A stretch of 34,598 bases of DNA from an uncultured Acholeplasmatales bacterium (GTDB lineage Bacteria > Bacillota_I > Bacilli_A > Acholeplasmatales > UBA5453). Positions 5,601 to 27,215 of the stretch are shown here, one piece after another (the stretch's first letter is position 1; each line of letters begins with the position of its first letter). The translations under genes were made by a program, and so were the position numbers. The stretch is taken from positions 1 through 34,598 of the forward strand of contig CAKMJY010000013.1 in assembly GCA_927433595.1 (NCBI GenBank). Direction: 5' to 3'. Under the pieces are notes generated by a model. It was given only the letters and a program-made list of their open reading frames with translations. It was not told the DNA's origin and did not search any database.

Positions 5601-5702
5601 TTAGTATACTTTCATTATAGGTTAAAAAAACCAATCTGACAACAGAATTATACAAAATTATTACAATTAGTGTTAAAATGCCTTGGTTAAGCCAAATAAA
5701 TA

Positions 5703-12614: not shown

Positions 12615-13130
12615 TTATTTCTCTAACAAAAAATCTTCGTAAACTGGCATTAGTCGTTTGTTTAAGATTACTGTGACAATACTTAAGATTGCGATATTCA
12701 CTGGTATCATAGGTAATCTTAAGGATAAGCTACCGATTGCATAATCTAGGTTTACCACCATGAATAACGCAAACGTATTTAACAGTGATGCTAAGATATG
12801 GGTAATGGTTAATACAATACCTATTCTCAAATGACTACTTTTCTTATTGAGTAGTAATCCGGGTAAGAACCCCCATATAATGGCACTTAAACTAAAGAGT
12901 GGATTATAGCCACCTCTGACAAAGAGGATAAACCCAACATTATCGCTGACTAAACCCATTAAAGCGCCGTAGATTGGACCTAATACGATACCACCAATAA
13001 TGAGTGGGATGGCATAGTAGGGTAACCCAAAATCAGCTGCTGGAATGACTTGTTTAACTAACACATCTAGGGCAATTGACAATGCCGTCAATATCCCTGC
13101 TAAACTTAAAAACCTTAATTGCTTCGTCAA
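12615..13130 (-). CDS. folT: Folate-specific ECF transporter S component
   Basis: FolT/ThiT-like S component (YYAIPLIIGGIVLGPIYGALMGLVSDNVGFI) directly downstream of a THF riboswitch. Confidence 0.85.
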   Translation of the reverse strand: MTKQLRFLSLAGILTALSIALDVLVKQVIPAADFGLPYYAIPLIIGGIVLGPIYGALMGLVSDNVGFILFVRGGYNPLFSLSAIIWGFLPGLLLNKKSSHLRIGIVLTITHILASLLNTFALFMVVNLDYAIGSLSLRLPMIPVNIAILSIVTVILNKRLMPVYEDFLLEK

Positions 13131-13154: not shown

Positions 13155-13280
13155 GATCCACTATAAAAAAAACCTTACAGCGGACGCATAAGAAAACCGC
13201 CACTATCACTAGTGTTCGTACCAACCCGACATCCCATGGTTAGTCACTTAACGCTTCCTTATTACTCTGTTAAGGTTATT
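13155..13280 (-). promoter_or_regulatory. Tetrahydrofolate (THF) riboswitch
   Basis: Minus strand AACAGAGTAATAAGGAAGCGTTAAGTGACTAACCATGGGATGTCGGG...GCGGTTTTCTTATGCGTCCGCTGTAAGG matches the THF aptamer conserved elements. Confidence 0.9.
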
Positions 13281-21166: not shown

Positions 21167-22249
21167 ATGCGCATTGAATTTGATGAAAAGTTAGATTTTC
21201 AAGATGTTTTAATTAGACCAAAGCGTTCAACGCTATCTAGTCGTAAGGAAGTGGATTTACAACGTACTTACACGTTCAAACATTCAAAACAAACATGGAC
21301 TGGTATTCCAATTATGGCTGCTAACATGGATGGTGTTGGTACACTTGATATGGCCAAAGCCCTACAAGAACGCCAATTATTCACTTGCTTAGTTAAGAGT
21401 TATTCAGAAGCACATATTTCAAACGTGATGAACGATTTGAATCCTGAGTTTTTTGCCTTATCCACTGGGACATCACAAGATGATTATAATAACCTAGTGA
21501 GTACGATTGCACAAAACCCATCCATTAAGTTTATTTGTATCGATGTTGCAAATGGTTACTCAGAAGCCTTTGGACAGTTCGTGTCTAAAGTGAGAGCTGC
21601 TTATCCAAATCAAGTCATCATTGCTGGTAATGTGGTCACGGCTGATATGACTCAAGAACTCATCTTGCGTGGGGTTGATATCGTTAAAGTCGGCATCGGA
21701 CCAGGTAGTGTTTGTACAACCCGTATTCAAACAGGGGTTGGTTATCCACAATTATCTGCGATCATCGAATGCGCCGATGCAGCACATGGTTTAGGTGCGC
21801 ACATCATTTCTGATGGTGGTTGTACATGTCCAGGTGATGTTGCAAAAGCATTTGGTGCTGGTGCAGATTTCGTGATGCTAGGCGGGATGTTTGCAGGCCA
21901 TTTAGAAGGTGGCGGTAAAGTAATCACTGAATTCCACGACACCTTACAAAAAGATATGAAATCCTTTGAGCCTATTTATAAAGAAAAGAAATTCGTTGAA
22001 TTCTATGGCATGAGTAGTTCTACTGCCATGATCAAACATAAAGGCGAAGTCGCTGATTATAGAAGTAGTGAAGGTAGAACCGTTAAAATCCCATTTAAAG
22101 GTCATGTCGATGACACCATCAAAGATATTTTAGGTGGCATTCGCTCTACTTGTACCTATGTTGGTGCTAAAACATTAAAAGACTTATCAAAATGCACGAC
22201 ATTTATCAGAGTATATAGACAATATAACGACGTTTATACGAGACACTAA
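21167..22249 (+). CDS. guaC: GMP reductase
   Basis: IMPDH/GMPR fold with [69 protein letters not shown]. Confidence 0.93.
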
Positions 22250-22256
22250 AAACAAT

Positions 22257-22290
22257 AAAACCTGCATAATTTGCAGGTTTATTTTTTTAA
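22257..22290 (+). terminator. Terminator downstream of guaC, possibly bidirectional
   Basis: AAACCTGCataattTGCAGGTTTATTTTTTT; minus strand ...GCAGGTTTTATTGTTTTT is also U-rich. Confidence 0.8.
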
Positions 22291-22304
22291 TGTTTTACTT
22301 TTTA

Positions 22305-22522
22305 CATGCTTTAACCCCAATAAAACCACAGTCCATTTTAGAACACTGCTTGGCGGCACTTATGTTATAATTTGGTACCAAAGGGGTTTATGAGGGCTCC
22401 CCAATGGTACTTTAAGCAACTAAACACATAAATCTGTGCTCTAAAACGTATTTAACTAAACAGATTTAAATCTGTCGTAGCTAAAGCATTTTAGTCATTG
22501 GTTTTATTGGTGTCAAAGCATG
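22305..22522. mobile_element. MITE-like element with ~24-25 bp terminal inverted repeats and no ORF
   Basis: Left end ACATGCTTTAACCCCAATAAAACCA (22304-22328) and reverse complement of right end ACATGCTTTGACACCAATAAAACCA (22499-22523), 23/25 identical; TTTA direct repeats at 22301-22304 and 22523-22526. Confidence 0.6.
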
Positions 22523-22561
22523 TTTACAAGCCATCCTTGTAAACTTGACATATATTCATAT

Positions 22562-22588
22562 AAAAAGCCAGCATTTTCATGTGCTGGC
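22562..22588 (-). terminator. Terminator / expression platform downstream of the c-di-GMP riboswitch
   Basis: Minus strand GCCAGCAcatgaaaaTGCTGGC followed by TTTTTAT. Confidence 0.8.
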
Positions 22589-22620
22589 ATTCATTTAAAT
22601 GTTGCCATACCAGAAAAAAC

Positions 22621-22694
22621 GTTACCGGTAACTGGCTGTCTTAGTAAGACCCTGTAGCTTTGCGTCCTTAGATTGCTCTAAGTTTGCCTATAAC
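22621..22694 (-). promoter_or_regulatory. Cyclic di-GMP-I (GEMM-I) riboswitch aptamer
   Basis: Minus strand GTTATAGGCAAACTTAGAGCAATCTAAGGACGCAAAGCTACAGGGTCTTACTAAGACAGCCAGTTACCGGTAAC: conserved GGCAAAC, GNRA-capped P2, GGACGCAAAGC, GCCAGTTACCG and pairing P1. Confidence 0.9.
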
Positions 22695-22714
22695 TTCTTA
22701 ATTACTTCAAATCA

Positions 22715-22743
22715 ATTTTACTATAGTAGTTAAGGGATGTCAA
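22715..22743 (-). promoter_or_regulatory. Sigma-A-type promoter for the c-di-GMP riboswitch transcript
   Basis: Minus strand TTGACA - 17 nt - TAAAAT. Confidence 0.75.
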
Positions 22744-25701: not shown

Positions 25702-27039
25702 TTAGTGCCCTCCTTGTGTGTCTAAGCCTTCAATGCCTGACAATTCTTCTAGACGATCAAGACCATTGATTTCGCCTGCTTTTGAAATCGCGTATTTAGC
25801 AAATAGTGGTCCGAATGTTTCGTAAACTAAAATCGATAACATGATAATGGTTGAAATGACTGGATAGAATCCCTTCATTTGTGCAGAAACAATGACAAGC
25901 AAGCCAATCGATACCCCACCTTGAGGTAATAAAGCAATCCCCAGGTATTTTCTAATGGTCATAGACGATTTGGCAACATAAGAACCTGTCACTATACCCA
26001 ATATTTTACCACTTCCTCTAGCTAAAATATAGACTAGTGACATCCAAAGTACCAATGTGTCTGCTTTTAAGATGTGTAAATCTAGACTTGCACCAGCTAA
26101 AGTGAAGAACATAATATAAAATGGTGTTGAGAAATCATTGATTGCAGTGAAGGTTTTATTTGGCGTTTTTGCCATATTGGCAATCATTGAACCAATCATG
26201 ATGTTCATTAGTAGTTGCGAGAACGCAATCCCGTATTCATGTAAATAATGATTCATAATAGAGGTTAATCCAATTGCAAAGAACACGGCAATCAACGCCA
26301 AGACTTGCATGTCGTCTCTGGTTTTATCGTATTTGTTCGCTAGCTTAGATAAAGAATACCCAATGATACCCCCCAAAATAATCGAGCCAAATACTTCAAT
26401 AAATGGCTTAGAGAACATCAACCAAACCGGTTGATCTGCGCCTTGTGGGACTAAAATCTGTGCAATTGAAATGAAAAATCCAAACGTAATGATCCCGTAG
26501 ATATCATCCAAAGCTGTAATTGGTAAAATGGTCTTTGTTACAGGACCATATGCACGGTATTGACGAATGACCATGATGGTTGCTGCTGGTGCAGTAGCGG
26601 CTGACATACTCGCTAATATTAAACCAAAGGCAATGTTTGGATTCGCAAACGGATTATAACCTGTCATGATGCTATCTGGTTTAGGTAAGAAAAGCATCGC
26701 TAAAAATACAATTAATACCGCGCCAATGACTTCAAAAGTCGTCAAAATCATGACTTCTTTCCCCATTTTTTTAATGGTTTTTATGGCGAATTCACTACCG
26801 ATAGAAAAGGCAATGAATGCGAGTGCAATTTCACTGATAAAGGATAATGATTCATTTTCACCAATCGTGATGAACCCTTCATAACCCTTAAAGATTAAAC
26901 CCATCGATGGGCCTAAAATTAACCCTAACACCAAATACCCTGATACGTTAGGTAACTTAAACTTTCTTGCCAATAATGCGCCAATAAAACCCACGGCAAG
27001 CACGATTGACATCTTAAATAGTAATACGTAAATATCCAA
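25702..27039 (-). CDS. CPA2 family cation:proton antiporter (Kef/Nap-type membrane domain)
   Basis: Polytopic protein with VSGYLVLGLILGPSMGL, ALAFIAFSIGSEFAIKTIKK, LPQGGVSIGLLVI; probable TTG start after AGGAGGG at 27039. Confidence 0.87.
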   Translation of the reverse strand: MDIYVLLFKMSIVLAVGFIGALLARKFKLPNVSGYLVLGLILGPSMGLIFKGYEGFITIGENESLSFISEIALAFIAFSIGSEFAIKTIKKMGKEVMILTTFEVIGAVLIVFLAMLFLPKPDSIMTGYNPFANPNIAFGLILASMSAATAPAATIMVIRQYRAYGPVTKTILPITALDDIYGIITFGFFISIAQILVPQGADQPVWLMFSKPFIEVFGSIILGGIIGYSLSKLANKYDKTRDDMQVLALIAVFFAIGLTSIMNHYLHEYGIAFSQLLMNIMIGSMIANMAKTPNKTFTAINDFSTPFYIMFFTLAGASLDLHILKADTLVLWMSLVYILARGSGKILGIVTGSYVAKSSMTIRKYLGIALLPQGGVSIGLLVIVSAQMKGFYPVISTIIMLSILVYETFGPLFAKYAISKAGEINGLDRLEELSGIEGLDTQGGH

Positions 27040-27066
27040 TAAAATCCCTCCTAGAATGATGATATA

Positions 27067-27098
27067 CAAAAAAAACGCATAAATACTTATACGCTTAA
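27067..27098 (-). terminator. Terminator / expression platform of the c-di-AMP riboswitch
   Basis: Minus strand AAGCGTATAAGTATTTATGCGTTTTTTTTG. Confidence 0.8.
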
Positions 27099-27215
27099 TC
27101 ACTCCTATGAGGTTAGCTGACGGGTTCAGGACATTAAGTATCCTTACAATGATTGATTCACCCCAAAAGTTGGTTCCCCCACTTAGTATTGGTAATTCGG
27201 AGATATCACATGCAT
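27098..27215 (-). promoter_or_regulatory. Cyclic di-AMP (ydaO/yuaA) riboswitch
   Basis: Minus strand CCGAATTACC...GTGGGGGAACCAACTTTTGGGGTGAATCAATC...GAACCCGTCAGCTAACCTCATAGGAG matches ydaO conserved elements. Confidence 0.92.

Follow-up and report, generated by a model that had tools for sequence, protein, structure and literature searches.

Organization of the spx-guaC intergenic region

The window analyzed here, the whole 34,598-nt stretch of DNA, makes up a single contig of a draft genome (1.59 Mb, ∼86% complete) from a Paracholeplasma-like mollicute; judged by the spx protein, its closest named relative is Paracholeplasma vituli (94% identity). Between spx and guaC, the minus strand from 22743 to 22258 carries, 5' to 3', a promoter, an aptamer, a terminator, and a hairpin, followed by an inverted repeat of 220 nt, in which a further consensus promoter lies, and by a bidirectional terminator. 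The first promoter (TTGACA-17-TAAAAT, 22743–22715) is present as an earlier sequence-only reading had described it, and transcription of the riboswitch RNA was estimated to start near 22708. When a perfect −35 box, a spacing of 16 to 18 nt, and at most one mismatch in the −10 box were demanded, the whole 34.6 kb contained four promoters, including this one and that inside the element (TTGACA-17-TAAAAT, 22516–22488, minus strand).

An Rfam cmscan search matched the c-di-GMP-I riboswitch family (RF01051) at 22698–22624 on the minus strand with 64.1 bits (E = 1.7e-10; gathering score, 35 bits) over the full length of the model (1–87), in agreement with the earlier claim of a complete aptamer. P2 is capped by a GCAA loop, which confirms the proposed GNRA cap. 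In the RF01051 alignment, G occupies 22687 and C occupies 22628, the positions equivalent to G20 and C92 of Vc2; the earlier assignment of G at the G20 equivalent thus holds. G and C at these positions go with recognition of c-di-GMP rather than cGAMP, and the aptamer, having both, is predicted to bind c-di-GMP. The aptamer is an ordinary member of RF01051, and its arrangement is a rare variant. It is followed by the intrinsic terminator reported earlier (stem 22588–22567, then TTTTT at 22566–22562). The terminated RNA that had been proposed is likewise predicted here, at a length of ∼145 nt rather than ∼130 nt. The bidirectional terminator (22258–22280), found on both strands, is common to the riboswitch transcript and to the convergent guaC gene, which ends at 22249.

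The genome search for GGDEF domains yielded 19 matches, of which 18 were above the cut-off, and the genome holds three c-di-GMP-I riboswitches including the spx-guaC one. The other two are ordinary: one separates a GGDEF-EAL gene from surface-type proteins, and the other precedes a GGDEF gene. Because of these 18 matches and two additional riboswitches, c-di-GMP is expected to be made by this organism.

Absence of a downstream protein gene

No minus-strand ORF of at least 60 aa was found between the aptamer and guaC, which bears out the sequence-only reading, and no ORF of at least 100 aa occurs within 1400 nt of the riboswitch in the window or in two sister species (G004 and G005). The downstream coding gene of a cis-acting riboswitch is therefore absent. 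Among 42 distinct c-di-GMP-I loci of the order, drawn from the best-scoring matches and the family rather than as a random sample, 37 are closely followed by an ORF that reaches at least 100 aa (36 starting within 250 nt and one at 252 nt), two lie near contig ends, and three have no ORF within 1400 nt, all of them copies of the spx-guaC unit. The spx-guaC unit resembles the surface-protein riboswitches of the Acholeplasmatales in aptamer family and score; it differs in having no ORF, whereas the others examined precede one, except for the two near contig ends. The proteins behind the other riboswitches of the order mostly possess an N-terminal hydrophobic stretch. As a separate observation, tandem pairs of c-di-GMP-I aptamers precede surface-type genes in relatives (G003:C1:1034516-1034706 and G001:C75:5698-5856).

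Conservation in related genomes

The unit of promoter, aptamer, and terminator also occupies the spx-guaC intergenic region of G004 and G005, in both without an ORF, and G004, G005, and P. vituli each have a consensus promoter at the equivalent position. The 165 bases that run from the −10 box to the end of the terminator T-run are all identical in G004 and G005, compared with 78% identity at the four-fold sites of guaC; the chance of 165 unchanged bases is ∼2e-18 at the guaC four-fold rate and ∼1e-7 at the slower spx rate. The window and G004 share a matching 61-nt stretch that is 87% identical, versus 38% at guaC four-fold sites. These comparisons support strong purifying selection on the unit. 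In P. vituli (L035:565-960 and L117:1121-1515; G008 has the intergenic sequence of L035), the promoter, transcript start, post-terminator segment, and final terminator are kept, and a long A+T-rich hairpin replaces any recognizable aptamer. At least one lineage can thus do without the switch. The spx-guaC site of G006 holds different sequence, and in G003 guaC is absent beside spx.

Many genomes of a neighboring family carry a c-di-GMP-I riboswitch in the same neighborhood (spx, CYTH, gapA), located after gapA and before small surface-type proteins; descent of the spx-guaC switch from a surface-gene riboswitch is plausible on this basis. In loci L040-L070 of that family (e.g., L041:6972-7045), the proteins beyond gapA and the riboswitch are small, secreted-looking, and marked by the motif TSTAAFAYW; neither of the two tested had a Pfam match.

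The inverted-repeat element

The 220-nt inverted repeat (22304–22523, minus strand) is present in a single copy and is absent from the relatives. The segment 22285–22560 folds with z = −7.4. No copy of the element was found elsewhere in the genome, where its ends were matched only at three mismatches, at or near the chance level. A search of 161 genomes of the order, plasmids, and phages gave no convincing relative; four matches (26–50 bases, E ∼1e-3) were treated as chance. A permissive Rfam scan returned chance-level matches alone, and inspection by eye revealed no clear target-site duplication. The element had been called MITE-like, a designation that presupposes several copies with terminal inverted repeats in common; being single, with ends found nowhere else in the genome, it is not a MITE. 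It may be inserted mobile DNA or part of the RNA gene.

Predicted switching mechanism

Folding of growing transcripts indicated a three-way competition among aptamer, antiterminator, and terminator segments. The proposed antiterminator (22585–22607), derived from thermodynamic folding, pairs UGGCA (22607–22603) with UGCCA (22589–22585). With the aptamer imposed, it was favored at 127 to 142 nt made, with values of 0.61–0.97 for the aptamer alone and 0.30–0.98 when P1 was added. When the aptamer was not imposed, its GCCA segment (22636–22633) paired with UGGC (22607–22604) at 0.61–0.96, leaving the terminator free. In the full-length fold the terminator wins with or without the aptamer, so any control would be kinetic. 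The G004 sequence has an equal topology built from different sequence (GUUGCCA / UGUGUGG / CUACACA), and there the antiterminator prevails at late stages also when the aptamer is not imposed. The aptamer pairs were strictly enforced in the G004 run and not in the window run. These models weakly suggest, with low confidence, that the ligand favors read-through (ON), opposite to the OFF behavior reported for class I switches of C. difficile (PMC11477304).

According to this model, transcription would begin near the estimated start and yield the aptamer. When c-di-GMP is lacking, the 5' arm of the antiterminator would be captured by pairing with the aptamer's 3' side, the terminator would form, and the short RNA would be released. 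With c-di-GMP, the aptamer would retain its own 3' segment and the antiterminator could form; polymerase would then read through as far as 22258, where the bidirectional terminator would end a structured RNA of ∼450 nt. The corresponding RNA in the sister species would be ∼260–270 nt.

A probable non-coding RNA output

The observation was confirmed, and the locus is conserved; it probably yields a non-coding RNA, and any function is a prediction. On balance, we favor the view that this is a genuine c-di-GMP-I riboswitch, maintained by selection, that controls a non-coding RNA and not a protein. Since the protein-less unit has been kept in two sister species, a small non-coding RNA is the most likely object of control; among the roles that had been suggested earlier, this one fits best with the conserved lack of an ORF and the strong purifying selection. 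The longer or the shorter RNA would presumably act in trans. A more specific version, which we advance tentatively, is that in this genus of wall-less bacteria the spx-guaC interval encodes a trans-acting small RNA that c-di-GMP turns on by antitermination, a case in which the second messenger would act through RNA alone; in this genome the structured inverted-repeat element, with its own promoter, would have been added to that RNA.

Sequence and folding place a hairpin (GTTTACAAG-GATGG-CTTGTAAAC) at 22522–22544 on the minus strand. The window, G004, G005, and P. vituli all have a hairpin shortly past the terminator; the stem sequences differ, and taken one by one the hairpins of the four genomes fold only modestly better than shuffled sequences (p = 0.064, 0.028, 0.050, and 0.009). 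These features are suggestive of a conserved structured RNA, and in P. vituli the post-terminator segment is kept despite the lack of a recognizable aptamer. Two smaller points, both from inspection by eye, concern the loop. At 22535–22531 it reads GGATGG both here and in P. vituli (GGATGGCTT is common to the two) on stems that differ. A CATCC in the transcript leader of P. vituli and of G004 could pair with the hairpin loop.

Alternative explanations

The sequence-only reading had also offered a relic whose target was lost. Deletion of a gene in this strain alone is refuted by G004 and G005, which likewise have no ORF. In a broader form, the switch would once have preceded a surface-protein gene, as nearly all those of the relatives do; the ancestor of the genus would have lost or relocated that gene, and the switch would now be decaying. 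This account is favored by the surface-type proteins behind the neighboring-family riboswitch, which keep the proposed origin plausible, by the loss of the aptamer in P. vituli, and by the other sequence in G006. Drift, however, would be expected to have separated G004 from G005, and it has not; between the window and G004 the aptamer is conserved far above neutral sites; and promoter and terminators are intact in three species. Conservation of the ORF-less state in two other species together with strong purifying selection thus disfavors a simple relic. The unit is probably not a relic, and we regard its present decay as unlikely.

By analogy, the short terminated RNA might itself be the product, serving as a c-di-GMP reservoir or sponge or as a trans-acting aptamer RNA. 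A strong consensus promoter, a strong terminator, and the missing target gene would suit this role, for which the proposal made for Bdellovibrio merRNA (PMC3627812) provides a precedent. The G004–G005 identity nevertheless extends beyond the aptamer across the whole expression platform, and P. vituli, though it lacks the aptamer, conserves a part of the sequence past the terminator. We consider this alternative distinctly unlikely.

Antisense interference of read-through with guaC (GMP reductase), which would tie c-di-GMP to guanine nucleotide pools, had been raised as well. The guaC gene is convergent and close in the source genome, G004, and G005, and c-di-GMP riboswitches are, in a survey of antisense-acting riboswitches, the family most enriched in that arrangement (PMC9943018); the calls there, as far as described, are based on orientation and on a distance of up to 500 nt. 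The spx-guaC transcript is like those in being convergent with a nearby gene. It differs in that read-through would meet the bidirectional terminator before the guaC stop codon; by sequence, an equivalent stem-loop lies between the unit and guaC in the relatives. This second terminator, which the sequence-only reading had not weighed, disfavors antisense control of guaC, which we view as very improbable.

That the switch governs a very short peptide whose frame follows the terminator, another earlier suggestion, is scarcely credible: short frames lie past the terminator in G004 (21 codons) and G005 (18 codons), and a 25-aa frame in the window starts inside the terminator, but frame and sequence are unconserved even between G004 and G005 (indels) and the short frames of the window (20–29 aa) have no recognizable ribosome-binding site, so that, with no short frame conserved, such a target is unsupported.

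Relation to known systems

The riboswitch with a non-coding RNA output, our preferred reading, has partial counterparts. In Bdellovibrio bacteriovorus, merRNA contains a c-di-GMP riboswitch inside a non-coding RNA with no conserved downstream ORF; it is ∼445 nt long, massively expressed, and known only from Bdellovibrio (PMC3627812). The spx-guaC unit, known from its sequence, likewise combines a c-di-GMP riboswitch with the lack of a downstream ORF, and differs in having a terminator directly after the aptamer and in its conservation between species. Clostridioides difficile RCd11 and RCd12 are prophage-borne type I antitoxin RNAs linked to class I riboswitches that are each followed by an additional, stronger promoter, and an orphan riboswitch lies between CD2517 and CD2517.1 in the same organism (PMC11477304). 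The spx-guaC unit shares with RCd11/RCd12 a class I riboswitch before a non-coding RNA, here a predicted one, and a second promoter downstream. Unlike them it has no recognized toxin gene, and the class I switches of C. difficile are reported as OFF (PMC11477304). A type I toxin-antitoxin arrangement of this kind was considered for the locus and rejected, the small plus-strand frames (26, 40, and 45 aa) being without support.

Riboswitches that govern non-coding RNAs have rarely been described, and conservation across species has been documented for few of them. If it is borne out, the present case would represent an RNA output of c-di-GMP signaling preserved within a genus of mollicutes, a group in which c-di-GMP appears to have received little study. 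Being small, the system lends itself to testing, and P. vituli supplies a natural variant without the aptamer.

Other riboswitches in the window

Three further riboswitches were recorded, all on the minus strand. A c-di-AMP (ydaO/yuaA) riboswitch at 27212–27087 (91.8 bits) stands in an ordinary arrangement before a membrane antiporter-like gene (25702–27102). A cobalamin riboswitch at 5607–5435 (78.3 bits) lies upstream of two genes, one small and lipoprotein-like and the other a membrane gene. Finally, a THF riboswitch at 13271–13176 (69.7 bits) is located upstream of a membrane gene (12615–13130) that resembles a transporter component.
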